Assembly (NCBI GenBank): GCA_029218505.1
Contig: JAQXRL010000158.1
Span: 1-34,120 of the forward strand
Length of the DNA stretch: 34,120 nt
Direction: 5' to 3'
Source: Eubacteriales bacterium
GTDB lineage: Bacteria > Bacillota > Clostridia > Christensenellales > Aristaeellaceae
The stretch's first letter is position 1. Each line of letters begins with the position of its first letter. The position numbers were made by a program, and so were the translations under genes. The notes beneath the pieces were generated by a model. The model made no database searches, was not told where the DNA came from, and saw nothing but the letters and a program-made list of their open reading frames with translations. Positions 1-34,120 of the stretch are shown here, piece by piece.

Positions 1-2320
1 CCAGGTTCAGATACATCGTCTCCGTCATGAAAGGAATATAGGGCGCCAGCAGCTTCGACAGCGTGGTCAGCACGGTGTACAGCGTTTCAAACGCCGCCAG
101 CTTGTCGCCCTCCATGCCCTTGCCCCAGAAGCGCTGCTTGCAAAGCCGCACATACCAGTTGGACAATTCGTCCACAAAGGCAGAAATGGCGCGGGCGGTT
201 TCCGTAATCTTGTATTGTTCCAGGCCCTCGTCCACATACTGCACCAGCGTGTTCAGCTTGGACAGCACCCATTTGTCCATCAGGGCAAAATCTTCCGGCT
301 TTGCGTGCTGCGTGGCTGGCTTGTAATCGTCAATGGACGCGTACAGCGTAAAGAACGCGTAGGTATTCCACAAAGTGCCCATAAACTTCGACTGCATTTC
401 GCTGACCAGTTCATGAGAGAACCGGGTGGGCAGCCACGGCGCGCCGTTCGCGTAGAAATACCAGCGAACCGCGTCCGCGCCCTGCCGGTTCAACACATCC
501 CATGGATCCACCACATTGCCGATGTGCTTGGACATTTTCCGGCCTTCGGCATCCTGCACATGTCCCAGCACAATGCAGTTTTCAAAGGGCGCCCGGCCAA
601 ACACCAGCGTGCCGATGGCAATGAGCGTATAGAACCAGCCGCGGGTCTGATCGATGGCCTCGGAAATAAAATTCGCCGGGAAGTTCGCCTCAAAGATTTC
701 CTTGTTTTCAAAAGGATAGTGCCACTGGGCGAAAGGCATGGAGCCGGAATCATACCAGCAATCGATCACTTCCGGCGTGCGATGCATTACGCCGCCGCAT
801 TTCTCGCAGGGAATGGTGACCGCATCGATATAAGGACGATGCAATTCGATGTCTTCCGGCACGTTGGCGCCCAGCCGCCGCAGTTCTTCCCGGGAACCGA
901 TCACATGAATGTGTCCGCAGGAGCAAACCCATACCGGCAGCGGCGTGCCCCAATAACGTTCTCTGGACAATCCCCAGTCAATGACGTTTTCCAGGAAGTT
1001 GCCCATGCGCCCTTCCTTGATGTTTTCCGGCATCCAGTTTACCGCCCGGTTGGAAGCCACCAGTTCGTCCCGGATTGCGGTCATGCGAATGAACCATGTC
1101 GCGCGGGCATAGTAAATCAGCGGCGTATCGCAACGCCAACAGAAGGGATAATCATGGGTAAACTCCGCCGCCCGCACCAGCAATCCGCGCTGATCCAGAT
1201 CCGCCAAAATCATGGGGTCCGCTTTTTTCACAAAGGTTCCTGCCCAGGGCGTGGCCTTGTCCATGCACCCTTTGGCGTCCACCAGCTGCAAAAAGGGGAT
1301 CTCGTTATCGCGGCCCACCCGCGCGTCGTCTTCGCCGAATGCCGGCGCAATATGCACGATGCCGGTACCGTCCGTCATGGTGACATAACCGTCCGCCACC
1401 ACGCGGAACGCCTTCTCCGGATGCTCCAGCAAGGCCGGCTGGAAGTCAAACAGCGGCTCGTAGCGCATGCCCACCAAATCTCTGCCGGGCATGGTGCGCA
1501 TGTCGGAAATCTGGGCGTCGTCGCCCAGCACTGCGCCGATAAGCGCCGTGGCCATGATGATGGTTCTGCCTTCGCAGACGAAGCGGCCGTATTCCTCGTC
1601 CGGATTGACGCACAGCGCCACGTTGCTGGGCAGCGTCCATGGCGTGGTCGTCCAGGCATATAAATACGTGTTTTCCTCGCCGGTTACCTTGAAGCGCACG
1701 AACGCGGATTTCTCCGTCACGCTTTTGTATCCCTGGGAAACCTCATGGGAGGACAGCGCCGTACCACAGCGCGGGCAATAAGGCACAATCTTATGCCCTT
1801 TGTACAGCAGCCCCTTGTCCGCGATGGTCTTCAGCGACCACCATTCGCTTTCGATATAATCGTTGTCATACGTGATGTACGGATGTTCCATATCCGCCCA
1901 GAAGCCCACCCGGTCGGACATCTTTTCCCATTCGCCCTTGTATTTCCAAACGGATTCCTTGCATTTGCAGATGAACGGCTCGATGCCATATTGTTCAATT
2001 TGTTCCTTGCCGTCCAACCCGAGTTGTTTTTCCACTTCCAATTCCACCGGCAGGCCGTGGGTATCCCATCCTGCCTTCCGGGTAACGCTTTTGCCCTTCA
2101 TGGTCTGATATCGGGGAATCAAATCCTTGATGGCGCGCGTTTCAATGTGACCAATATGGGGCTTGCCATTGGCCGTCGGAGGACCATCATAAAAGGTAAA
2201 CACATCGCTGCCCTTGCGCAGATCCATCGTTTTTTCAAAAATGCGATTGTCATGCCAGTACTTTAGAACCGCTTCCTCCCGGGAAAGAAAATCCATGTTG
2301 GCAGGCGCTTTCTCAAACAC
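1..2320 (-). CDS. ileS: Isoleucine--tRNA ligase, type 2 (partial, C-terminus off the left edge)
   Basis: This class I aminoacyl-tRNA synthetase charges tRNA-Ile with isoleucine in the cytoplasm. The gene runs off the left edge after 773 codons; family members have about 1030-1050 residues, so most of the anticodon-binding C-terminus is missing. Near residue 53 the HIGH motif reads PHIGHIETRAIKDLIPRY, followed by KAGWDTHGLPVELEVEK. That context matches the type 2 (eukaryote-like, typically mupirocin-insensitive) IleRS group. The KMSKS loop is present in frame as KMSKH (Met 596). I chose the GTG start at 2320 because GGAGGG sits at 2327-2332, just upstream; the ATG at 2296 lacks such a site. 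Expression is probably controlled by the T-box leader immediately upstream. Confidence 0.96.
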   Translation of the reverse strand, partial: MFEKAPANMDFLSREEAVLKYWHDNRIFEKTMDLRKGSDVFTFYDGPPTANGKPHIGHIETRAIKDLIPRYQTMKGKSVTRKAGWDTHGLPVELEVEKQLGLDGKEQIEQYGIEPFICKCKESVWKYKGEWEKMSDRVGFWADMEHPYITYDNDYIESEWWSLKTIADKGLLYKGHKIVPYCPRCGTALSSHEVSQGYKSVTEKSAFVRFKVTGEENTYLYAWTTTPWTLPSNVALCVNPDEEYGRFVCEGRTIIMATALIGAVLGDDAQISDMRTMPGRDLVGMRYEPLFDFQPALLEHPEKAFRVVADGYVTMTDGTGIVHIAPAFGEDDARVGRDNEIPFLQLVDAKGCMDKATPWAGTFVKKADPMILADLDQRGLLVRAAEFTHDYPFCWRCDTPLIYYARATWFIRMTAIRDELVASNRAVNWMPENIKEGRMGNFLENVIDWGLSRERYWGTPLPVWVCSCGHIHVIGSREELRRLGANVPEDIELHRPYIDAVTIPCEKCGGVMHRTPEVIDCWYDSGSMPFAQWHYPFENKEIFEANFPANFISEAIDQTRGWFYTLIAIGTLVFGRAPFENCIVLGHVQDAEGRKMSKHIGNVVDPWDVLNRQGADAVRWYFYANGAPWLPTRFSHELVSEMQSKFMGTLWNTYAFFTLYASIDDYKPATQHAKPEDFALMDKWVLSKLNTLVQYVDEGLEQYKITETARAISAFVDELSNWYVRLCKQRFWGKGMEGDKLAAFETLYTVLTTLSKLLAPYIPFMTETMYLNL

Positions 2321-2345
2321 GCGTATCCCTCCAAAACAAAAATAA

Positions 2346-2592
2346 GCCTCGTCCGACATGGGACGATGGCTCGCGGTACCACCCAACTTGGCGCATTTGC
2401 GCCCTCTCATGGCGCGCATGCACGCGCCTTCGCGATAACGGGCGAACCCGGCGCTGCTTAATTGCGAAACGATCGCGTTCGGCATGCGGCTCCAGGGCGA
2501 TTTCCCTGCGGCGGCGCTTGCCGGACTTCCACCATCCTCCGGCTCGCTTCAAAGCCCTTTCCGCGGGCGTTCCCTATCAAAGCGTTTCCTAT
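2346..2592 (-). promoter_or_regulatory. T-box leader (tRNA-Ile-sensing) controlling ileS
   Basis: The hallmark T-box TGGGTGGTACCGCG is exact at 2372-2385 on the minus strand. Upstream lie the usual companions: a stem I region with GGATGGTG-like and GAAG elements (about 2527-2545), CCGTTATCG at 2433-2441, and TGAGAGG just before the antiterminator. A transcription terminator follows at 2346-2370. Its arms are GCCATCGTCC and GGACGAGGC, paired with one bulge and followed by a T-rich run. An ATC triplet at 2499-2501, in the 3' strand of stem I, is the likely specifier codon and fits tRNA-Ile. Known family behaviour: uncharged tRNA stabilises the antiterminator and permits readthrough into ileS. 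Motifs are seen directly; the specifier position is inferred. Confidence 0.93.
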
Positions 2593-2598
2593 GATTTT

Positions 2599-2627
2599 AT
2601 TATAGCCGATCAATACAAAACCAGAAA
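2599..2627 (-). promoter_or_regulatory. Probable promoter of the T-box/ileS transcript
   Basis: On the minus strand a perfect -10 box TATAAT (2599-2604) is preceded at 17 bp by a weak -35 TTTCTG (2622-2627). Transcription would begin near 2592, exactly ahead of stem I of the T-box, which supports the assignment. It lies just past the J-domain gene's stop codon. Confidence 0.6.
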
Positions 2628-2648
2628 GCGTGGGCGTGTTAATTTCCA

Positions 2649-3152
2649 TCACTGCGCCCTTCCCACGCGAAACCTGTGGCTTCGAAGCCCGCCGCATGCC
2701 GATGAAGCGCAGGCATCCCGCGCGGCGCGTTCTGCCCGAACATATTTGGGATTTCCGGGGCACTGGTGCATCGCTACGGTGAGAAACGTCAGCGCTTTTT
2801 CATATTCCCGCAGCCGATACAGCACCGCGCCAAAGAGATAATTCCATTCCGCGCAGCGGGTGCTGAACCGCATCAATTGCGCCCGGGCGTCCTGCAGCAA
2901 ACCGCCCTGGATCATCGTTTCTATCTTCTGCAATTGCTCCGCTTCGGCGCAGCGCTGCCCATCCGCCTTTGCTTCGCTCAGGCATTGCCGGTATGCCGCG
3001 TTGATCTGCGCCATCTTCTCGTTGGCCCAATCCCGTTCCGGTCCGGCCATGAACCGGTCCGGATGCCAGCGCCGGGCCAGTTTTCGATAAGCTTCCCGAA
3101 TCTGCGCCTGGGTCGCTCCATGAACCACGTTCAAGATCTCATAGGCGTTCAA
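2649..3152 (-). CDS. Small J-domain (DnaJ-like) protein with a TPR-like C-terminal part
   Basis: The N-terminal 55-60 residues form a J domain: YEILNVVHGATQAQIREAYR followed by the HPD signature at residues 30-32 (WHPDRF). J domains stimulate the ATPase of DnaK-type Hsp70 chaperones. The remainder (about residues 70-140) is helical with TPR-like pairs (LLQDARAQL, WNYLFGAVLYRLREYEKAL). There is no G/F-rich region and no CxxCxGxG zinc-finger repeat, so this is not DnaJ itself but a type III J protein; its client is unknown. The start is TTG at 3152, behind GGAGTG; an in-frame TAG two codons upstream excludes anything longer. It has its own promoter at 3264-3292. The last about 25 residues are basic and low in complexity. 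Confidence 0.85.
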   Translation of the reverse strand: MNAYEILNVVHGATQAQIREAYRKLARRWHPDRFMAGPERDWANEKMAQINAAYRQCLSEAKADGQRCAEAEQLQKIETMIQGGLLQDARAQLMRFSTRCAEWNYLFGAVLYRLREYEKALTFLTVAMHQCPGNPKYVRAERAARDACASSACGGLRSHRFRVGRAQ

Positions 3153-3263
3153 CGTCTATCACTCCATCCTGAAAGTCGCGCAAGCCCGTTCGTCCGCAAA
3201 AGATTTTATGCATTCCAACGCCAGCGCAACCCAATCCAACAAAAAAAATCGCCAATATGATAC

Positions 3264-3292
3264 ATTTTATCAGCCGTTCGTTCTTCTGTCAA
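3264..3292 (-). promoter_or_regulatory. Strong promoter for the J-domain gene
   Basis: Minus strand: perfect -35 TTGACA (3287-3292), 17-bp spacer, -10 TAAAAT (3264-3269). The start site would be near 3257, about 105 nt ahead of the TTG start. The leader contains a run of Ts at about 3241-3248 (minus strand) and no clear structured element. Confidence 0.8.
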
Positions 3293-3380
3293 GCACAGAT
3301 TTCTTCCTCGGGAAATCATTTCAAAAATGTTGCAAATATTATCCACTTAGGAAATTTCTATCAAAATGCCGTCCCGCCTG

Positions 3381-3409
3381 TTTACTATGTTCCCAAAATA
3401 TACTACAAT
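3381..3409 (+). promoter_or_regulatory. Probable promoter for the 3.4-5.0 kb operon or a short RNA
   Basis: TTTACT (3381-3386), 17-bp spacer, TACAAT (3404-3409). Transcription would start near 3416, leaving about 160 nt before the first gene. A terminator-like hairpin lies inside that leader. The -10 region overlaps a small inverted repeat, TACTAC ... GGTAGTA. Confidence 0.6.
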
Positions 3410-3516
3410 ATTCTTTGGTAGTATTGGGATTTTTGTCAATTCCTGGCGAATAAAGGACGTGACTTCCTTGCAGCATCGCGCAAACCGGCGCACTTTCGAC
3501 AACGCTCGCAGGCGGA

Positions 3517-3550
3517 AACAAAACAGCGCTCATATTTTGCGCTGTCTTTT
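3517..3550 (+). terminator. Terminator-like hairpin between promoter and first gene
   Basis: ACAGCGC (3523-3529) pairs perfectly with GCGCTGT (3539-3545) across a 9-nt loop. It is flanked by A-rich sequence on the left and CTTTTGTTG on the right, so it could act in both directions. No gene ends here on either strand. It therefore either ends a short transcript of about 130 nt from the promoter at 3381 or acts as an attenuator for the downstream operon. Confidence 0.6.
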
Positions 3551-3578
3551 GTTGTGCTTTCCGCATGGATTGGTGCTG

Positions 3579-4013
3579 ATGTGGAAAAACAGCTGCACGT
3601 GGCGGCGTTCTTTGAAAATCGCCATAACCTGCGTCTATGTGGCATTGGCGCTCACGGTGGTGCTATATCCCGCTCCCGGCAAGGAAAAATCGGGCAGCGT
3701 GGAAATCGTCGGTCTGCAACGCGAAGTGGAGGTATTTGGTCCGGAACTTCCCGAAACCATGCCCGAAAGCAATTACGCCTATACCGCGACCGATTCCGTC
3801 GTGTTAACCTCAAACGGCGACGACGACACCGTATACGTATATGCATCCAAGGGCGCCAGCTGCTATCATCTTTTTGAATGCAAATACGCGTTTGCCAGCG
3901 CGCAGCGCCTGACGGTTTACGAAGCAACATTCCTGGGATACACGCCTTGCGGGCTGTGCCATCCGCCGGAATATGGTCAAGAAAACGCGCCCGCCGAAGG
4001 AGAAAACCCATGA
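3579..4013 (+). CDS. Membrane-anchored protein with C-terminal YHxxxC...PCxxCxPP motif
   Basis: I do not recognise a named family for the whole protein of 144 residues. It has one hydrophobic segment at about residues 13-31 after a basic N-terminus (CTWRRSLK), so it is probably anchored with the rest outside. A linker of about 55 residues follows. The C-terminus reads VYVYASKGASCYHLFECKY ... LGYTPCGLCHPP, with Cys95, His97, Cys101, Cys124 and Cys127. This resembles the small putative metal-binding tail found on some secreted nucleases and ComEC/MBL-like proteins of Firmicutes; metal binding is inferred. I prefer ATG 3579, just before the hydrophobic segment, although its ribosome site is weak; the open frame extends further upstream. 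The stop overlaps the rnhB start (ATGA), implying translational coupling. Confidence 0.65.
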   Translation: MWKNSCTWRRSLKIAITCVYVALALTVVLYPAPGKEKSGSVEIVGLQREVEVFGPELPETMPESNYAYTATDSVVLTSNGDDDTVYVYASKGASCYHLFECKYAFASAQRLTVYEATFLGYTPCGLCHPPEYGQENAPAEGENP

Positions 4014-4636
4014 CAAGGGAAACCGCAACGCAAAAGCTCGAACGCATGACGGCGATCGAGCTTTCTCTGTGGAAAGACAATCTGTCCGTGGCAGGCATTG
4101 ACGAAGTGGGCCGGGGACCTTTGGCAGGCCCAGTGGTAACGGCGTGCGTCTGCATTCCCCGGGAAAAACTGATTCCCGGAGTAGACGATTCCAAAAAGCT
4201 TTCGGAAAAACGCCGGGAAGCGCTGTTCCATCCCCTGCTTGATGCTGCCGACTATGCAAAAACCGCCTTTGTGTCCCCGCAGCGCATTGATCAAATCAAT
4301 ATTCTAAACGCCACCAAAGAGGCCATGGAAGAATGCGGCCGCGATTTCCGCGGCATTTTCCTGGTGGACGCGGTAACGGGGCTTTCCCTGCCGGGAGAAG
4401 TCCGTTCTCTGGTTCACGGAGACGCCATCAGCTATATGATTGCGGCGGCGTCCATCGTGGCAAAGGTCACGCGGGATCGGTATATGATCGCCCTGGACGA
4501 AAAATATCCCATGTATGGCTTCGCAAAAAACAAGGGATACGGTACCGCTGAACACATCGCCGCGCTAAAAAAATATGGCCCGTGCCCGGAGCACAGGCGC
4601 AGCTTCATCTCCAAATTCGTGGTGAATGCGCCGTGA
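4010..4636 (+). CDS. rnhB: Ribonuclease HII
   Basis: RNase HII cuts the RNA strand of RNA/DNA hybrids and starts removal of single ribonucleotides from DNA. The 208-residue product has the full catalytic set: Asp31-Glu32 in AGIDEVGRGPLAGPVV, Asp120 in LVDAV and Asp138 in HGDAISYMIAAASIVAKVTRD. DDSKKLSEKRRE (residues 59-70) is also typical. The ATG at 4010 overlaps the previous stop by four bases, and GAAGGAG lies about 8 bases upstream. Its end overlaps the yraN start (GTGA), so the three genes form a tightly coupled operon. The rnhB-yraN pairing is common in bacteria. Confidence 0.96.
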   Translation: MTRETATQKLERMTAIELSLWKDNLSVAGIDEVGRGPLAGPVVTACVCIPREKLIPGVDDSKKLSEKRREALFHPLLDAADYAKTAFVSPQRIDQINILNATKEAMEECGRDFRGIFLVDAVTGLSLPGEVRSLVHGDAISYMIAAASIVAKVTRDRYMIALDEKYPMYGFAKNKGYGTAEHIAALKKYGPCPEHRRSFISKFVVNAP

Positions 4637-4989
4637 ACCGCCGGCAAATTGGCGCGGAAGGCGAAGCCATTGCTCGCCGGATGTTGGAACAGGCAGGCAT
4701 GGTCATCCTGCAAATGAATTATCGCTGCCGCTATGGCGAAATTGACATCATTGCCCGGGACGGCGAACGCACGGTGTTCGTGGAAGTCAAGCGGCGTTCC
4801 GGCGTGGGATACGGTTCTCCCGGGGAAGCCGTGGACGCAAGAAAGCAACGCAAAATCGTGCTGACCGCCCTGGCGTATATGCAGGCAAACGGCCTGCTGG
4901 ACAGCCCCATTCGCTTTGACGTCGTGGAAATTCTTCCGGACGCGGCGCGGCACATTCCCGGCGCCTTTGACGCTACCGGCGTCTGCTGA
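4633..4989 (+). CDS. yraN: YraN/UPF0102 family endonuclease-like protein
   Basis: The 118-residue length is normal for this family, which adopts a PD-(D/E)XK nuclease-like fold and is often linked to DNA metabolism; its biochemical role is not established. The signature residues are all present: RYGEIDIIARD (residues 33-43), VFVEVKRR (48-55) and YGSPGEAVDARKQRKI (60-75). Glu36, Asp38, Glu51 and Lys53 would form the nuclease-like centre. The start is GTG at 4633, overlapping the TGA of rnhB. The gene ends 31 bp from the convergent regulator, with no T-tailed terminator between. A 13-base direct repeat (TTCCCGGCGCCTT at 4955 and 4997) spans the 3' end. Confidence 0.9.
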   Translation: MNRRQIGAEGEAIARRMLEQAGMVILQMNYRCRYGEIDIIARDGERTVFVEVKRRSGVGYGSPGEAVDARKQRKIVLTALAYMQANGLLDSPIRFDVVEILPDAARHIPGAFDATGVC

Positions 4990-5020
4990 GGCAAACTTCC
5001 CGGCGCCTTGGCCGCCTTTG

Positions 5021-7453
5021 TCAGCGCGTTTCCTCCATGTTTCGGCGGTATTCGCTGGGGGACATATCATAGAATTTCCGAAAACACCGGGTAAACGTCC
5101 GATAATTGTTAAAGCCGGCGCGCTCCGAAATCTCCGCAATGGTAAACGCGCTGTTTCCCATCAGTTCCCGCGCCCGTTCCACCCTGCAATGGCTCAGATA
5201 ATCCGGAAAGCTTTCTCCCGTCAGATTTTTTACAATTTTGGAAAAATACCCCTCGGAAAGCCGCCAATGCTCCGCCGCGCTGCAAAGGCTGATATCCCGG
5301 TTCCAATTCGCATGGATGTATTCGTCCAGTTCCTTTTGCCCCACCGGCAACCCGCTGGTCTCCATTTGAATCGCGCTGCCCGCCCGTTCAAACATGCCGT
5401 GCAAATATGTCATGGCGTCTTCAAACGTGTCGCAGTTCTCCAGCCGGGCGCACATGTCCCGATAATCTCCCAAGATGAATTCCGCGTCCCGGCCAGAGGA
5501 TGTCATCGCTTTGTACAGCACATCCAGTCCGCCCACCAGCAATTTCCGCATGACGGAACAAGAGATGCCGTCTTCGCACAGCCGTTCATGCAAAAAGCCC
5601 TGCATTTCGTTCCAGGCTTCGTGAACCTTTCCCACATGCAGCAGGGCGATCATCCGGGTTTCCAGGCGCACCGGAGTCAATGCCGGAACCTTGCCATCCA
5701 CGGTTTCCTGCCGAAGAACATCCCACACGCCGCCGGAAGACTGGCTGCGCAAAAAGCATCCCTCAAAGCCCTGGGCGCATTGATCCGCCATTTCCCGCAA
5801 AAGCGCCGCGTTTTCCCGAGCGCTCATGCAGCGCGGACGCGGCATGGACGCCGCATACAGCACCGTTGCGCCAAAATTCGCGATTGTCTGCTCCTGAACC
5901 TGGTCCATTCGCGCGGCGGCTTTCAATCGAAAGGCCTCCGGCGACATGTCATGCGAAAACACGACAAAGATTTCCCCGTCCATCACCGCCGTGCGCACAC
6001 AGAACGCGTCGCTCATCAGTCCATGAATGCTGTGCGCCACCAGGCGCAGCATGCGATTCAGGGATTCCGGCATATGTTGCTGTCGCATTACGTGAGAATG
6101 GGAAAAGCGCACCACCACCAATTGCAAATACTTTTCAGAAAATGCGTTCAGCCATTCCACGCATTCCGGGCCTTCGCTGTTATGCAGCACATGATAGAAC
6201 GCCAAATCGTCCAACATGGGCGTCAGCGCATCCACGGTACGGTTCAGTTTGGCGTTGTCCATCAGCACCTCGTCCACCAATCTGCCGATCGCGGTCAGCT
6301 CATCGGGCGACTTCCCGGCGGCAATTCGCCCCTGGGCCACAAGGGCGTTGATGAGCGTGCCCACGGGCTGATACAGCTTCCTGGAACATCGCAGCGCAAT
6401 TACCGTCACCGCCAGGGAAAAACACAGCGTGAGCATGGCGGAGGTGATCCATGCCTTGTACACATGGCGGTTTTGAAGCGCATTGGACGTGAGATAAACG
6501 TATTGCAAATTGCCAAACGGCAGCTTCTTCTTGCTGATCTGATATTGCCTTCCGTTTAGCGCAACATGGGTGCTTTCGTTTTCCAGCAACGCTTGAATTT
6601 CGGCATCCGTGGGCAAATCGTCCTGATCCAATCCCGCGAAGCCCAACAGTTCCGTGCCGTTGCAAAGCATCTTCGCATCCGTCAGCTTTTCCCCGAATTG
6701 TTCCACCCGGGGCTGGATCACCGCGCAGACATACGCCTTGGGCTGGGATTCCCCCAGGGGCAAGGGCATGATCTCCAGCATATATCCAACCCCCATTACC
6801 CCCTGGGGATTGGGCACATACGTGAGCCTCTTTACGGACAAAATCTGCTGCTTCAACGTTTGCGCCTGATCCCAGTCTCCCGTGATGCGATATCGCAAAT
6901 ATGTATCCGCGCCCTCGCTGCCAATGCTCACAATGATATCCAACCGCGGCACGTACAAAAACAGGCTCTTCAAGCCCTCCGCGCTGGACATCACGCTTTC
7001 AATGCGCTCGGATATGCCCAAAATGGCCTGTATCCGCGCCTGTTCGCCGGAACGGCCCGCTTGCAGCAGCGCGACATCCGATGAACTGGCCAAATTCAAA
7101 ATGGCGCCATTGATTCCCGCAAGCTGCATGCGAATGCTTTCCACGTCCTGATCGCAAATCTGCGTGCGCAGATTTCCAATCTGCTGATCCATATACCGGG
7201 TCAAAAAGAAGGATGTGCACAATCCGGACACAAGCACCGCCAGCACCACCAACACCGTCGTCGTCCGCATCAACCGCATTTGATAGCTGTGCACGCCCGA
7301 AGCCTCGTGAAACAGATTCCCGAGACGCCGCACATATCCTGCGGACTTTTCCAAAGGCCGGCCACACCCCATTGGCGCAAAACCGCCTTGACGGACATCC
7401 TTCCTCAGTCGCTTCACACGATCACTCCAAAACCAGTTTTCATTTTTGAACAT
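5021..7453 (-). CDS. Membrane-anchored AraC-family regulator with extracellular sensor domain
   Basis: The 810-residue product has two membrane segments, at about residues 65-86 (TTTVLVVLAVLVSGL) and 333-355 (SAMLTLCFSLAVTVIAL). They enclose an extracytoplasmic domain of about 245 residues, the layout of YesN/YtdP-type sensors. After a linker and a variable cytoplasmic region, the C-terminal 100 residues form the two-helix-turn-helix AraC DNA-binding domain (LSEGYFSKIVKNLTGESF ... ISERAGFNNYRTFTRCF). Such proteins usually sit beside sugar importers and activate them in response to an external ligand; the adjacent permease/binding-protein genes fit this. Start uncertain: ATG 7453 would leave an almost leaderless mRNA from the promoter at 7468-7496, while ATG 7372 has AAGGCGG upstream. 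The gene converges on yraN. Confidence 0.9.
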   Translation of the reverse strand: MFKNENWFWSDRVKRLRKDVRQGGFAPMGCGRPLEKSAGYVRRLGNLFHEASGVHSYQMRLMRTTTVLVVLAVLVSGLCTSFFLTRYMDQQIGNLRTQICDQDVESIRMQLAGINGAILNLASSSDVALLQAGRSGEQARIQAILGISERIESVMSSAEGLKSLFLYVPRLDIIVSIGSEGADTYLRYRITGDWDQAQTLKQQILSVKRLTYVPNPQGVMGVGYMLEIMPLPLGESQPKAYVCAVIQPRVEQFGEKLTDAKMLCNGTELLGFAGLDQDDLPTDAEIQALLENESTHVALNGRQYQISKKKLPFGNLQYVYLTSNALQNRHVYKAWITSAMLTLCFSLAVTVIALRCSRKLYQPVGTLINALVAQGRIAAGKSPDELTAIGRLVDEVLMDNAKLNRTVDALTPMLDDLAFYHVLHNSEGPECVEWLNAFSEKYLQLVVVRFSHSHVMRQQHMPESLNRMLRLVAHSIHGLMSDAFCVRTAVMDGEIFVVFSHDMSPEAFRLKAAARMDQVQEQTIANFGATVLYAASMPRPRCMSARENAALLREMADQCAQGFEGCFLRSQSSGGVWDVLRQETVDGKVPALTPVRLETRMIALLHVGKVHEAWNEMQGFLHERLCEDGISCSVMRKLLVGGLDVLYKAMTSSGRDAEFILGDYRDMCARLENCDTFEDAMTYLHGMFERAGSAIQMETSGLPVGQKELDEYIHANWNRDISLCSAAEHWRLSEGYFSKIVKNLTGESFPDYLSHCRVERARELMGNSAFTIAEISERAGFNNYRTFTRCFRKFYDMSPSEYRRNMEETR

Positions 7454-7458
7454 GTATG

Positions 7459-7496
7459 CCCGGAGAGATCATACAATCTCTCCGGGTTCATGTCAA
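7459..7496 (-). promoter_or_regulatory. Promoter of the AraC regulator gene overlapped by an 11-bp palindrome
   Basis: Minus strand: TTGACA (7491-7496), 17-bp spacer, TATGAT (7468-7473). A perfect inverted repeat, CCCGGAGAGAT (7459-7469 on the plus strand) and ATCTCTCCGGG (7476-7486), covers part of the spacer and the -10 box. No T-tract follows on either strand, so a protein-binding operator is more likely than a terminator. Transcription would start only about 8 nt from ATG 7453. Confidence 0.7.
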
Positions 7497-7515
7497 TGGT
7501 GCAGCCGCAACAAAT

Positions 7516-9036
7516 TCACTTGCTCAGGTTATAATTGTCATTCACTTCCTGGGTAATCTGATCCATGCCATACTCCTTCAGTTCCTTCAACAGGCTTTCG
7601 AAGGAATCCCAGTCGGAAATGCCCATGATGTAATTGTCCATTTCGTCCTTCATCGGGGACCAGATATCGGCGCTCAGCTTGCGGTTGGTTTCCGTGTCCG
7701 TGAGGGAAGCGGGCAGCGCGTAATAGGCAAATTCCGCATTGTCCACATACGCATGATAGGCCAGCGCGTCTACCTCGTCCAACTCCTCCAGCGTTTTGCC
7801 CTGGAAGGTGATCTGCAGGAAATTGTCCTCCGTCCAAACCTGCGCCCATGTGCCCTTTGCAATGCCTGCGCCCCGGGCGTTTTCCCAGCTGGTGCAATAG
7901 GGTTCCAGCAATCTGGGCTCGCCGTCCACCTTTTCGTGATGTACGCCCTCAACCCCGAAGTTCGTCAGTTCAATGCCCTCGTCGGAGAACAAGTAGTCGA
8001 TGAACATCATGCAGGCTTCGGGATCCTTCGCCGTGGAGGAAATGGCCATGCAGGTGCTGTAGGGATAGCGGCCCTGAATGTTCTGGCCGCCCACGCCCTT
8101 CATGGGCGGAATGTATCCCAGCAGCGCTTTTTCAAAGCCGTTGGCGCGCAGGGACTTGGTGAGCTTCGTGGATTCATTGCCGGTGGCATACGTGACGCCC
8201 ACCTTGTCCGTGGAAACCAATTCGTCCCGGGAAGGAATATCTCGAACGGTGTATTCGGAATCAATCAAGCCCTCGGAATACAGCTGCCGGAGCAAATCCA
8301 CGCAGTTTTTGAATTCCGGATGCTCATACATGGGAATCAGCTTGCCTTCGTATTCCGTGTAATCCCCCACTACCCGCTTGATGCCGAACGCATCCAGGAA
8401 CACCTGCAAATCGCCGTTCAAAACCATAAACGGGATCTCATCCGCCATGCCGTTGCCGTTGGGGTCGTCGTTTTTGAAGCGGCGCATCACTTCCACGAAT
8501 TCTTCCACGGTGGTGGGCGCTTCCAGATTCAGCGTTTCCAGCCAATCGTAACGAATCATCATGGAATTCAAATACGGGAACGCGTTGTACTGCTTCACGG
8601 AATAGATGCCGCCGTTATAATCGTACTGATAGGGCATGGATTCCTCCGTCCAGAAGCGGGTAATGTTCTGGCCGTATTTTTCCAACAGGTTGTTTTCCGG
8701 ATCGTCCAGGCGCAGCACCGCATCCTGCTCCACCCACGCGGCGGGAACGGCCTGCTTCCAAAGGAAGCTGATCACGTCTGGCAGTTCGCCGGACGCCAGC
8801 ACGGTGTTGATTTTCTCGTCAAAGTTTGCCGACGGCACATAGGTGTATTCCAGCTTGATGTTCAATTTTTCCTGAACCGCCTGTTCCACCGCGTTGTTTT
8901 CCTTGTTGGAATTGACGCCTTCCAAAATGGTAATGGTGATCGTCTCATCCTCCGGCAGGGAACGAGCCGCTTCGGCCAGCCCGCCCGTGCTCAGCAAACA
9001 CAAAACCAGAATCAACGCCAAAATGGTTTTTTTCAT
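7516..9036 (-). CDS. ABC-transporter solute-binding protein (sugar type, LplA/YtcQ-like)
   Basis: The 506-residue secreted protein begins MKKTILALILVLCLLSTGGL, a signal peptide with a probable signal peptidase I site near GLAEA-A. It then has the usual start of this family (ITITILEGVNSNKENNAVEQ and KLNIKLEYTYV). YDWLETLNLEAPTTVEEFVE and DPNGNGMADEIPF are typical of large oligosaccharide-binding proteins partnered with LplB/YtcP permeases. The expected lipobox is absent: Cys13 is in LVLC, without a small residue at -1. That is unusual for a single-membrane host, where binding proteins are normally lipid-anchored. Start ATG 9036 follows GGAGGAG. Substrate unknown; the neighbouring hydrolase suggests an oligosaccharide. 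It lies 117 bp after the second permease and 62 bp before the AraC regulator. Confidence 0.92.
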   Translation of the reverse strand: MKKTILALILVLCLLSTGGLAEAARSLPEDETITITILEGVNSNKENNAVEQAVQEKLNIKLEYTYVPSANFDEKINTVLASGELPDVISFLWKQAVPAAWVEQDAVLRLDDPENNLLEKYGQNITRFWTEESMPYQYDYNGGIYSVKQYNAFPYLNSMMIRYDWLETLNLEAPTTVEEFVEVMRRFKNDDPNGNGMADEIPFMVLNGDLQVFLDAFGIKRVVGDYTEYEGKLIPMYEHPEFKNCVDLLRQLYSEGLIDSEYTVRDIPSRDELVSTDKVGVTYATGNESTKLTKSLRANGFEKALLGYIPPMKGVGGQNIQGRYPYSTCMAISSTAKDPEACMMFIDYLFSDEGIELTNFGVEGVHHEKVDGEPRLLEPYCTSWENARGAGIAKGTWAQVWTEDNFLQITFQGKTLEELDEVDALAYHAYVDNAEFAYYALPASLTDTETNRKLSADIWSPMKDEMDNYIMGISDWDSFESLLKELKEYGMDQITQEVNDNYNLSK

Positions 9037-30030: not shown

Positions 30031-31554
30031 ATGGACCGGATCGTTTCCATCCACGAAGAACTCCGCCAAATCGTATGGGGATGGCCTATGATGCTGTTGA
30101 TTCTGGGCGCAGGCGTTTACTTTACCCTGGGCACGCGTTTTCTGCAATTTCGGAAATTCGGCCGCATTATGGCGGGCACCATTGGCAAAATGTTTGACCA
30201 AACCGCCGTGGAGGACAAAGGCGCGGTCAGTCCCTTCCAGGCCCTGACCACCGCGCTGGCCGCCACCGTTGGCACGGGCAACATCGCAGGCGTGGCGGGC
30301 GCCATCGCCATGGGCGGGCCGGGCGCCGTGTTTTGGATGTGGATCAGCGCCCTGCTGGGCATGTGCACCAAATATGCGGAAGTTGTTCTTTCCATCAAAT
30401 ATCGGGAACGAAACGCGCAGGGGGAATGGGTTGGAGGCCCCATGTATACCATTCAAAACGGCCTTGGCCCGCGTTGGAAATGGCTTGCCGTCACGTTCGC
30501 CGTGCTGGGCATGACGGCCGCCTTCGGCATAGGAAACATGACGCAGATCAACACCATTGCCGGTTCCGTCAATATGGCGATCGCGTTTTTTGTTCCCGGC
30601 GCGGCAAATTTCCGGAACGCCATCAATGCCGTCATCGGTCTGCTGGTGGCGGCGCTGGCGGCAATGGCGCTGTTTGGCGGCGTCAAGCGCATCGGCCGCG
30701 TCACGGAAAAGCTGGTGCCGATGATGAGCGGACTGTATATTTTCGGCTGCCTGGTGGTGATCTTTGTCAACATCAGCCGCGTTGGCGCAGTGTTCGTCGC
30801 CATTTTTCGCGCGGCGTTCCAGCCCGCTTCCCTGTTGGGCGGCGCAACGGGCATTGGCATCGTCTCCGCCATGAAGCGCGGCGTTTCCCGGGGCGTTTTC
30901 TCCAACGAGGCCGGGTTGGGTTCCGCTCCCATCGCCTATGCCGCGGCCAGCACCGAAAGCCCCGTAGAGCAGGGATTTTACGGAATTTTTGAAGTGTTTG
31001 CAGACACCATCGTCATCTGCACGCTGACGGCGCTTGCAATCCTGACCAGCGGCGTCATTGGCGTTTCGGAAACCGCCGCCTTCGCCTATGGAGACGATTC
31101 CCTGGGCATAAACATGTCCATCGCCGCGTTTGGCACGGTCTTTGGCAACGGCATGGCGGGCATCATCATCTCCATCGCAAGCACGCTGTTTGCCCTGGCC
31201 ACCATTCTCAGCTGGTCGTTGTATGGCGCGCGCTGTTTTGAATATATCTTTGGCGTCAAACACACGCGCGTTTATCAGATGCTGTTCGTGGCGTTTATCA
31301 TGGTGGGCGCCACCATGAAGCTTTCCCTGGCATGGAGCATTGCGGATACCCTGAACGGACTGATGGCCCTTCCAAATCTATGCGCTATCTTAGCGCTTTC
31401 CGGCACCGTATTCCGCTTGACAGCCACATACCGGAATGGTATTCTATGCTCAAAATGTGTGTGTCATCGTTCCACCGCGCTGGCGGAGCAGAAGCCTTCA
31501 GGATTTTCCGCGAAAACGGAAATCAACGGGAATCATGGCATAAAATTGCCTTGA
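30031..31554 (+). CDS. AGCS-family sodium:alanine/glycine symporter
   Basis: The 507-residue integral membrane protein imports alanine or glycine with sodium. It has the AGCS signatures: FQALTTALAATVGTGNIAGV (residues about 70-89), GGPGAVFWMWISALLGM, the EWVGGPMYTIQNGLG loop, and FSNEAGLGSAPIAYAAAS. About eleven hydrophobic segments can be counted. I chose ATG 30031 before DRIVSIHEELRQIVWGWP; AAGGAG lies 11 nt upstream, a slightly long spacing. The conserved part ends near LNGLMALPNLCAILALSG; the final about 33 residues (after TYRNG) are unlike the family and run into the leader of the next gene, so a late frameshift or read-through extension is possible. Confidence 0.93.
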   Translation: MDRIVSIHEELRQIVWGWPMMLLILGAGVYFTLGTRFLQFRKFGRIMAGTIGKMFDQTAVEDKGAVSPFQALTTALAATVGTGNIAGVAGAIAMGGPGAVFWMWISALLGMCTKYAEVVLSIKYRERNAQGEWVGGPMYTIQNGLGPRWKWLAVTFAVLGMTAAFGIGNMTQINTIAGSVNMAIAFFVPGAANFRNAINAVIGLLVAALAAMALFGGVKRIGRVTEKLVPMMSGLYIFGCLVVIFVNISRVGAVFVAIFRAAFQPASLLGGATGIGIVSAMKRGVSRGVFSNEAGLGSAPIAYAAASTESPVEQGFYGIFEVFADTIVICTLTALAILTSGVIGVSETAAFAYGDDSLGINMSIAAFGTVFGNGMAGIIISIASTLFALATILSWSLYGARCFEYIFGVKHTRVYQMLFVAFIMVGATMKLSLAWSIADTLNGLMALPNLCAILALSGTVFRLTATYRNGILCSKCVCHRSTALAEQKPSGFSAKTEINGNHGIKLP

Positions 31555-31598
31555 AGAGTCCATCGCGAACCAAATTTTTGAAAGGGCGGGGGTTATTC

Positions 31599-33680
31599 GT
31601 GGAAATTACCATGTCGTTCGTCTACGCCGTCTCTCTGTTCACGGTGCTGGTCGCGTTTGCCTTTGCTGCCTACCTGTTTTTGTGGGTGCGCAGGCAAAAG
31701 GAAGGAAACGCGCGCATCATGGAAGTATCTGCGCTCATCAAGGCGGGCGCCAACACATTCATGCGCCGGGAATACGGAATTCTGGCGGTGTTCGCCTGTA
31801 TTGTGGCTGCGCTGATCGTCCTGTTCCTGCCCAAGCCATTCTGGCAGGGAGATTTTTCGCAAAACCTGGCTATGATGGTCGCCTATCTGGCAGGTACCAT
31901 TCTATCCGCCATTGCAGGCAAGATTGGCATTCTCGTGGCTACATCTGCCAATGCGCGAACCGCCGAAGGCGCGCGGCAGGGCATCAAGCCCGCCTTCCTC
32001 ATTGGATTCCGCGGCGGCGCCGTCATGGGCCTTGCCGTGGTGGGCTTCAGCCTGCTGGGCGTTTCCCTGGTGCTGATGCTTCTGGGCGACTCCTCCATTC
32101 TGTTGGGCTTTAGCTTTGGCGCAAGTTCCCTGGCGCTGTTTGCCAAGGCCGGCGGCGGCATTTTTACCAAAACTGCCGATGTCAGCGCCGACCTTACCGG
32201 CAAAGTGGAACTGGGAATTCCCGAGGATGATCCCCGCAACCCCGCCGTCATTGCGGACAACGTGGGCGACAAGGTGGGCGATGGGGCGGGCATGGGCGCG
32301 GATCTATTCGATTCCAACGTGGCGGCCATGACCGCGGCGCTGGTCATTGCAGAAGGGCTGGGCGGAGCAGCAAACACCATGATGGTTTTCTGTTACGCGG
32401 CGCTGGGGTTGATCGCTTCCATCATCGGCATCGCCACCGCGCGCATCAACCAAAACGGCAACCCCACGCGGGCGCTGAATTCTTCCACATATGTTACCAC
32501 CGGTCTGTTCATCGTCCTAACCGCGCTGGCAACGGCGATTTTCCAAGGGTTTTCCTGGCGCGTGTGGGGCGCTTCCACGGTTGGACTGTTGGTGGGCGTA
32601 ATCATCGGCATTACCACGGACTATTTTACGGACGACAGCAAGCCCATCGTGCGCCGCGTAGCCCATGCGTCCCATTCCGGTTCCGCCTTCACGGTGCTTT
32701 CCGGGATCTCTTATGGTTTTATCTCCGTGCTGCCCGCCATGATCGGCATTGCCGTATCCGCGCTGGTAGCATACAAGCTTTGCGCCCCCATGGGTGATGG
32801 CTACGCCATGTACGGCATTGCCATGGCAGCGGTGGGCATGCTTTCCATCGTCGGCATGATCATCAGCAACGATGCCTACGGCCCCATTGTGGACAACGCT
32901 CGCGGCCTTGCGGAAATGGGCAATCTGGGCGAAGAAACCATCCGTGTGGCCGACGAGTTGGACAGCGCGGGCAACACCGTCAAGGCCGTGACCAAGGGCT
33001 TTGCCATTGGCGCGGCGGGACTGACGGTCATCTCTCTGTTGGGCGCATACATGTCCGAAGCCAACGCCGCGCTGATTGCAGCGGGCCGCGAAATCATCAC
33101 CGGGTTCGACGTCATGAATCCCCTGGTATTTTTCGGCATTCTGATTGGCGCAGCGATTCCGGCGGTGTTTTCCGCTATGCTGATGCTGGGCGTAGACAAA
33201 AACGCACAGCGCATGGTGGAAGAAATCCACCGGCAATTCCGGGAAATTCGCGGTTTGAAGGAAGGCAAGGAGGGCGTTCAGCCGGATTACGGACGTTGCA
33301 TCCATATTGCCACCAGCGGCGCGTTGATGGAATTGATTCCTGCGGGACTTGTGGCGATTCTTTCTACGATGGTCGTAGGGTTCATCGGCGGCCCGTTGGC
33401 CATCGGCGGTTTCCTGCTGGGCAACATTGTTAGCGGATTGCTGCTGGCGTTGTTTATGTCCAACGCGGGAGGCCTGTGGGACAATTCCAAAAAATATGTG
33501 GAAGCGGGCAACGAAGGCGGAAAAGGTTCGGAAGCCCACAAGGCTGCCGTCGTCGGGGATACTGTGGGCGATCCCTTTAAGGATACGGCAGGTCCTTCCA
33601 TCAACACGCAAATTACGGTCGTTTCCCTGGTTGCTTCCCTCATGTCCGCCATCTTTGTCGCGTATTCTCTGTTCCGCTGA
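31599..33680 (+). CDS. hppA: Membrane-bound proton-pumping pyrophosphatase (K+-independent type)
   Basis: This enzyme hydrolyses pyrophosphate to pump ions out of the cell. The 693-residue protein has about 16 membrane segments and the catalytic loops TADVSADLTGKVELGIPEDD, IADNVGDKVGDGAGMGADLF and VVGDTVGDPFKDTAGPS. Lys462 in GNTVKAVTKGFAIG, plus Thr three residues on, are the residues that mark K+-independent H+ pumps; K+-dependent enzymes have Ala and Gly there. Departures from canonical sequences are DVSAD for DVGAD, GDK/GDG for GDN/GDC, and LFDSN for LFE(S/T)Y. I chose GTG 31599, preceded by GGGCGGGGG; ATG 31611 is an alternative. A terminator follows. Confidence 0.94.
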   Translation: MEITMSFVYAVSLFTVLVAFAFAAYLFLWVRRQKEGNARIMEVSALIKAGANTFMRREYGILAVFACIVAALIVLFLPKPFWQGDFSQNLAMMVAYLAGTILSAIAGKIGILVATSANARTAEGARQGIKPAFLIGFRGGAVMGLAVVGFSLLGVSLVLMLLGDSSILLGFSFGASSLALFAKAGGGIFTKTADVSADLTGKVELGIPEDDPRNPAVIADNVGDKVGDGAGMGADLFDSNVAAMTAALVIAEGLGGAANTMMVFCYAALGLIASIIGIATARINQNGNPTRALNSSTYVTTGLFIVLTALATAIFQGFSWRVWGASTVGLLVGVIIGITTDYFTDDSKPIVRRVAHASHSGSAFTVLSGISYGFISVLPAMIGIAVSALVAYKLCAPMGDGYAMYGIAMAAVGMLSIVGMIISNDAYGPIVDNARGLAEMGNLGEETIRVADELDSAGNTVKAVTKGFAIGAAGLTVISLLGAYMSEANAALIAAGREIITGFDVMNPLVFFGILIGAAIPAVFSAMLMLGVDKNAQRMVEEIHRQFREIRGLKEGKEGVQPDYGRCIHIATSGALMELIPAGLVAILSTMVVGFIGGPLAIGGFLLGNIVSGLLLALFMSNAGGLWDNSKKYVEAGNEGGKGSEAHKAAVVGDTVGDPFKDTAGPSINTQITVVSLVASLMSAIFVAYSLFR

Positions 33681-33748: not shown

Positions 33749-33777
33749 TTGACAAAGACCGCTTCTCATGGTAAAAT
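33749..33777 (+). promoter_or_regulatory. Near-consensus promoter upstream of the tRNA-Arg fragment
   Basis: TTGACA (33749-33754), 17-bp spacer, TAAAAT (33772-33777) with TG one base upstream. It is one of the strongest promoters in the window. The only downstream feature in the window is the tRNA fragment about 170 nt away. Confidence 0.85.
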
Positions 33778-33783
33778 ATACTC

Positions 33784-33950
33784 TGGTTTTCCGTTCTGCA
33801 AAAAACCGCAGATGCGTTCCGTGGGGCACGATGCAAAGGGTTGTTTGCGAAACCATGTGCGCCCATCGCGCAGCAGGATGGGGCATCCGCCTTCCAGGGC
33901 GAGGATGGGACGCCTTCGGGACGGGCCTCTTCCGCAAAAATTTCCGATAT
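33784..33950 (+). other. Structured gene-free leader between promoter and tRNA fragment
   Basis: No supportable gene is present. The stretch is GC-rich and can form several local hairpins: GGTTTT/AAAACC near 33784-33806, TGCGC/GCGCA near 33868-33882, CATCCGCC with GGC-GA-GGATG at 33884-33907, and a CTTCGG tetraloop near 33912-33919. It could be a long tRNA precursor leader or a separate small RNA. I could not match it to 6S, SRP, RNase P, tmRNA or a known riboswitch. Confidence 0.4.
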
Positions 33951-33990
33951 GTCTCCGTAGCTCAGCAGGATAGAGCGTTCGCCTCCTAAG
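33951..33990 (+). pseudogene. tRNA-Arg(CCU), 5' half only
   Basis: The sequence matches the 5' half of a tRNA-Arg: acceptor strand GTCTCCG (33951-33957), TA, D-arm GCTC/GAGC (33960-33963 with 33973-33976) with loop AGCAGGATA, anticodon 5' strand TTCGC (33978-33982) and loop CTCCTAA (33983-33989) with anticodon CCT at 33985-33987. After the next G the match stops. The expected GCGAA anticodon 3' strand, a T-arm pairing properly, and a CGGAGAC acceptor strand are not found in the remaining 130 bases. The half-gene keeps a strong promoter upstream. Interruption by an integrated element, or less likely an intron, is inferred. Confidence 0.75.
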
Positions 33991-34120
33991 AATATGTTAA
34001 TCACGGGCCAAATGATTTTTTGAAATCTGAAGTCCGGTTCGAATGGAGTCGCGATTTCGGCGTTTTTCTAACGCCGGGGAAGAGGAACATTTTTAAGAAA
34101 ATTGCTTTCAAGGGGCAAAA
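33991..34120. other. Sequence replacing the tRNA 3' half; possible element end
   Basis: These 130 bases are more AT-rich than the neighbouring DNA. They hold a hairpin, CGGCGTT/AACGCCG (about 34058-34076), without a T-tail on the plus strand. On the minus strand a frame is open from the right edge to a TGA at 34001-34003 (ending SDFKKSFGP); I recognise no family in it. It may be the tail of a gene lying beyond the window. Confidence 0.35.

Follow-up and report, generated by a model that had tools for sequence, protein, structure and literature searches.

The window, which is the entire contig C158 of 34,120 nt from a MAG of 3.29 Mb in 399 contigs, very probably ends in the left junction left by an element whose tyrosine integrase targets tRNA-Arg(CCU), and probably represents a scar or an array of such junctions rather than an occupied site. 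The contig stops at the right edge of the window, shortly behind the break in the tRNA gene. The features of this region are collected in Table 1.

Table 1. Annotated features near the right end of the window.
Feature	Position	Strand	Evidence
Membrane H+-pyrophosphatase gene, host, upstream of the tRNA	31332..33680	+	PF03030, E 1.5e-228
Promoter-like site TTGACA-17-TAAAAT of the host tRNA gene	33749..33777	+	11/12 consensus positions
Orphan 5' half of the host tRNA-Arg(CCU), acceptor strand to anticodon loop	33951..33989	+	GTCTCCGTAGCTCAGCAGGATAGAGCGTTCGCCTCCTAA; 41-bp identity to the C46 tRNA
CTCCTAA anticodon loop, 7-bp exchange core	33983..33989	+	Identity jump to L096; same 7 bp at junctions of relatives
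First 131 bp of a foreign leader segment, continuing past the contig end	33990..34120	+	94% to L096, 74% to G445:C15
TTTTTCTAACGC region, possible arm-type integrase site	34064..34075	+	Kept in the L096 and L279 alignments; putative function

The junction in the window

The 5' half of tRNA-Arg(CCU) is perfect in comparison with the complete tRNA-Arg(CCT) gene on contig C46 of the same genome, with exact identity over the 41 bp from 33950 to 33990. A strong promoter-like site lies about 170 bp 5' of the half; two such sites were found in the region compared with a mean of 0.3 in shuffles. Both observations agree with an earlier note on this DNA, which had described a tRNA-Arg(CCU) 5' half behind a strong promoter. 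Within the window no tRNA was found by ARAGORN, and the Rfam tRNA match at the half remained below threshold with 13.3 bits. If 33951–33990 is joined to the 3' half from C46, ARAGORN recognizes tRNA-Arg(CCT), whereas the unjoined window junction yields no tRNA. A structured tRNA-like RNA at the junction was considered and dropped, as the folding was no better than that of shuffles (z −0.10). Elsewhere in the window, a T-box leader was observed at 2356–2589 on the minus strand (Rfam RF00230, 97 bits).

In the intact gene the CTCCTAA loop is flanked by the inverted repeat TTCGC/GCGAA. Since the G at 33990 is common to tRNA position 39 and to the foreign DNA, the exchange point lies inside CTCCTAA, at 33983–33989. 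The break had previously been placed after the anticodon loop, at 33990; its location in the loop region stands, and the exact point is corrected to within these seven bases.

The tail behind the core, 33990–34120, is not a tRNA 3' half and gives no Rfam match at threshold. The 3' half is found only on C46, so that the earlier description of a 3' half missing from the window and replaced by unrelated DNA is borne out.

Recurrence of the leader in other genera

The tail is identical at 123 of 131 positions (94%) to the DNA that follows CTCCTAA in a locus of Cand. Faecousia faecavium (L096). Upstream of the tRNAs, 18 of 60 positions agree between the window and this locus, compared with 25 of 33 in the halves and 123 of 131 downstream of the core. 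An identity that starts exactly at the 7-bp loop between unrelated flanks is characteristic of site-specific exchange. The homologous leader segment in L096 measures 279 bp and ends in another tRNA-Arg 5' half, and it is situated within a longer array at a contig end. A third copy of the tail, 74% identical, occurs in G445:C15 (L279). We know of no intact element with the leader shared by the window and L096. Among the matches listed, eight of nine leaders longer than 200 bp contain [TG]CTAA[CT] sites.

Comparison of the tail with phage and plasmid records gave short chance matches only, and four scans of viral contigs revealed neither the tail nor the right end. The first viral-contig scan returned one relevant contig (L201) as well as four complete tRNAs with no more than a match to the pattern.

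Arrays of orphan halves in Clostridia

One genome per GTDB species was scanned for two tRNA-Arg(CCU) 5' halves at a distance of 35–65 bp, which revealed at least 120 loci; in an order sample the close-spaced pattern occurred in 11 of 396 genomes. Orphan 5' halves preceding a complete tRNA-Arg(CCU) are present in dozens of Clostridia. Among the matches listed, 85 of 104 groups consist of one to four orphan 5' halves followed by one complete tRNA-Arg(CCU), and the leaders mostly measure 92–93 bp from core to core, with nine exceeding 200 bp. Leader families recur across different genera and orders.

A tyrosine integrase of one family is encoded within 600 bp of the complete tRNA in 43 of the 59 loci with enough downstream sequence (among the matches listed), so that the integrase adjoins the att site in these relatives; none was found for the window genome. 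These integrases are always convergent with the array, and their open frames end about 140–390 bp from it (again among the matches listed). In a test of the scar step proposed below, complete pairing between the first half and the neighbouring 3' half was seen in 7 of 21 integrase-free loci vs 6 of 46 integrase-bearing loci (p ~0.06–0.09). An AT-rich motif, loosely defined, precedes 68 of 136 element-borne halves compared with 25 of 114 first halves.

Several individual arrays were conspicuous. In G032:C172 (L087/L267; 1–620) five 5' halves stand in a row, and the final complete tRNA shows an anticodon-stem mismatch, CGAGC/GCCCG, as would be expected if it had been put together from two tRNAs. 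In G310:C16:66-245 (L291, L298) a 92-bp leader with its half is present in two nearly identical tandem copies, possibly a simple duplication of an att unit. Outside Clostridia, a Gastranaerophilales MAG (L166; 45–250) contains two closely spaced tRNA-Arg(CCU) halves with an integrase of the same family approximately 2 kb downstream. A T-loop-like GTTCGA was observed within about 30 nt of the core in 57 of 136 orphan leaders, for example in L077 (2557–2836) and L119 (3888–3980). The motif could be a remnant of tRNA 3' halves that have decayed, or a signal kept for the recombinase or for processing.

Left and right ends in relatives

To locate the opposite ends, tRNA-Arg 3' halves were searched in 45 carrier genomes. 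The right junctions consist of non-tRNA DNA followed by CTCCTAA and an orphan 3' half, and one identical right end stands before different 3' halves in six genomes. Every junction examined in relatives, left or right, contains CTCCTAA. Once right junctions had been found, the idea that the orphan halves stem from elements carrying a 5' half only was dropped.

Both ends were found in 14 genomes. There, the first 5' half and the far 3' half pair at 162 of 168 acceptor and anticodon-stem positions, a value that none of 20,000 genome shuffles reached (maximum 153). The two genomes that fall short (L103, L182) show 12/12 pairing once a half further along the array is taken, which would fit insertion of the element into a locus where orphan halves were already present. 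According to ARAGORN, the rejoined pairs are tRNA-Arg(CCT) in 14 of 14 cases, compared with none of the 28 junction pieces. From the far-half pairing and these results we conclude that integration cuts the host tRNA in the loop and that the element supplies a complete tRNA of its own, one leader further in. In the relatives, this complete tRNA-Arg(CCU) is located between the left junction and the integrase; integration uses the short 7-bp core CTCCTAA in the host tRNA, and the cut tRNA is not rebuilt. For the element of the window, a carried tRNA is indicated only indirectly, by the complete gene on C46. The suggestion of the earlier note that the element restores the tRNA comes close to what is seen in relatives, with the difference that restoration proceeds via a separate whole gene just inside the left junction and not via repair of the cut gene.

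In the closed genome of C. asparagiforme DSM 15981 the left junction lies at about 75.9 kb and the right junction at 107.6 kb. The element in between is an ICE of approximately 32 kb and not a temperate phage, with genes for an integrase (PF00589), a MobA/VirD2 relaxase, VirB4 (CD1110), VirD4 (CD1115), a TrbL-like protein and ArdA. Only two CCU 5' halves were found in this genome, the orphan and the copy of the element (a tRNA with a divergent D-arm would be missed), and hence the ICE carries the only intact CCU tRNA of C. asparagiforme. With no other CCU copy, the host would be expected to depend on the tRNA of the element.

A second arrangement was found in G009: a 280-bp leader, then the replacement tRNA, then genes for a helicase and a DNA methylase. 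An integrase of the same family is encoded about 13 kb from there. The island (L265, G009:C1:14000-25000; 300–8724) encodes a SNF2/ResIII-type helicase of 1097 aa and an N6/N4 DNA methylase according to Pfam matches, and is possibly a defence (restriction-modification) island. The element behind the window junction may differ in kind from the C. asparagiforme ICE.

Proposed mechanism and origin of the window junction

In the mechanism we propose, the integrase exchanges strands in CTCCTAA, with the anticodon stem supplying the flanking inverted repeat. The host tRNA is thereby split, its promoter and 5' half remaining on the left and its 3' half coming to lie behind the right end of the element, which carries the complete replacement tRNA-Arg(CCU) one short leader inside the left junction. 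The relatives bear out the exchange in the core, the split tRNA, the replacement tRNA and the linked integrase. The host promoter, here the site listed in Table 1, probably reads through the orphan half and the leader into the replacement tRNA. Because the replacement tRNA has the same core, later elements could insert into it in turn. Excision through the inner core would leave a leader and a 5' half as a scar, and repeated rounds of insertion and excision would produce arrays of orphan halves.

In the rest of the MAG the sole complete tRNA-Arg(CCU) is located on C46 (17858–17934, minus strand; tRNA-Arg(CCT) by ARAGORN), with its 5' and 3' halves contiguous and the contig edge 2 bp upstream of the gene. 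Past the tRNA, C46 encodes an AraC-type response regulator and ABC permeases, and it looks chromosomal. This copy means that the CCU tRNA has not been lost from the genome, an option that the earlier note had left standing. The same note had proposed to look for a second CCU tRNA, for the missing 3' half and for a recombinase gene. The first is the C46 gene; the 3' half occurs once in the assembly, in this same gene and not adjoining the orphan half; a cognate integrase was not found in the bin, whose own recombinases are distant from the family. Neither was a right junction found in the bin, and when the gene order around the pyrophosphatase and on C46 was compared with that of relatives, no shared locus emerged that could serve as an orthologous empty site.

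The simplest reading of the window is an orphan half, a leader of about 280 bp, of which 131 are seen, and then the complete tRNA of C46. If the window is a scar or an array, the C46 tRNA would most simply consist of the 5' half of an element and the 3' half of the host.

The main rival is a mixture of occupied and empty cells, in which a whole element is integrated in the population or part of it, the window is its left end, and C46 derives from empty-site cells or from the far end. We regard this as possible, but rather doubtful. It would account well for the contig ends, as C158 breaks 131 bp into the leader and C46 starts just before its tRNA, as with two coexisting genotypes, and islands with long leaders do exist, as in G009. 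The lack of a right junction and of a cognate integrase in the bin speaks against it, although binning often misses mobile DNA. The base preceding the shared 41 bp is A in the window and C on C46, which argues weakly against C46 being the empty site with the same flank. Overall, a scar or a strain mixture fits the window as well as or better than an element now integrated. Of the junction of an integrated element described in the earlier note, the junction itself is retained, with a tail that recurs at the same loop break in unrelated genera and with breaks that adjoin tyrosine integrases; a present integration is disfavoured by the chromosomal-type genes of C46 and by the absence of a right junction and cognate integrase from the bin.

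An assembly chimera, in which unrelated DNA was joined at the 41-bp repeat, is very unlikely. The fragmentation of the MAG into 399 contigs and a break near a contig end, at a repeat that also ends C46, would suit such an error, but it would not place at 33990 exactly what follows the same 7-bp core in another genus, and 5' halves with leaders occur in isolate genomes as well, one of them closed. Even less probable is an island of the conventional kind, which would use a 3' half of its own to restore the cut tRNA at the left junction, the commonest layout for tRNA-targeting integrases (PMC4383910). In the window no 3' half follows the core, and in relatives the left junction is broken, with the complete tRNA one leader further in. 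A group I or other intron whose 3' part lies past the edge, as had also been suggested, deserves hardly any weight: the anticodon loops of tRNA-Arg(CCU) are known intron sites in other bacteria and the break does lie there, but neither the window nor the homologous L096 segment gives an Rfam intron match, that segment ends in a 5' half and not in a 3' exon, and the C46 gene is contiguous.

Beyond the scar or array at the window end, a broader picture may be put forward tentatively. The CCU locus of Clostridia could act as an integron-like landing array, where elements insert into the spare tRNA of each other and the cores shuffle gene-less leader cassettes between elements, hosts and orders, thereby recording past integrations. 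In that case the window and C46 would preserve this kind of record in a cell from which the element has disappeared.

Significance and comparison with known systems

No description of these elements was found in the open-access literature, and other papers may exist. What appears to be new is the occurrence of such elements in Clostridia and as an ICE, their use of tRNA-Arg(CCU) as target, a spare tRNA placed downstream of the host promoter, and the existence of arrays. A host whose sole CCU tRNA resides on an ICE cannot freely lose it, which bears on the persistence of elements in gut bacteria. The orphan halves provide a simple marker for finding such elements and mapping both ends, and their arrays look like natural traces of repeated insertion. 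They will also confuse tRNA annotation and island finders that expect a rebuilt cut gene.

The closest parallel is the tRNA-dependent lysogeny described for Fionnbharth, Gaia and other actinobacteriophages by Guerrero-Bustamante and Hatfull in 2024 (PMC10865867). These authors name the Lactobacillus prophage Lj965 as another candidate, raise the question of how common the strategy may be, and speculate that a second element could insert into the tRNA of the first. How far the strategy extends beyond phages of Actinobacteria was left open there; gut Clostridia, dozens of them, and a conjugative element now appear to use it as well. Both systems share a tyrosine integrase, a short core in a host tRNA and a junction that is not rebuilt. 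In Fionnbharth the tRNA is located elsewhere in the genome and has its own promoter (PMC10865867), whereas in Clostridia the host promoter is followed by the left junction and, one leader further in, by the replacement tRNA. The Clostridial elements, known here from sequence alone, further differ in including at least one ICE, in targeting tRNA-Arg(CCU) and in forming arrays. Since the C. asparagiforme element is an ICE, they work like tRNA-dependent lysogeny, but are not phage lysogeny.

With Islander-type genomic islands (PMC4383910), the elements have in common the tyrosine integrase, the tRNA target and a displaced fragment at the far end. Such an island restores the cut gene itself, whereas the Clostridial elements leave it broken and provide an entire second gene in its stead.

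Integron cassette arrays resemble the Clostridial arrays in that both line up several short segments that end in a common recombination core and are shared between taxa. The segments described here are, in contrast, gene-less; an anticodon loop serves as their core, and recombination is assigned to an integrase of the ICE and phage type. Finally, the VirB4 CD1110 and VirD4 CD1115 equivalogs, the MobA/VirD2 relaxase, the TrbL-like protein and ArdA connect the C. asparagiforme element to the CD1110/CD1115-type ICEs of Clostridia, which are Tn1549-like. What sets it apart from these ICEs is that the integrase and its target define the site.
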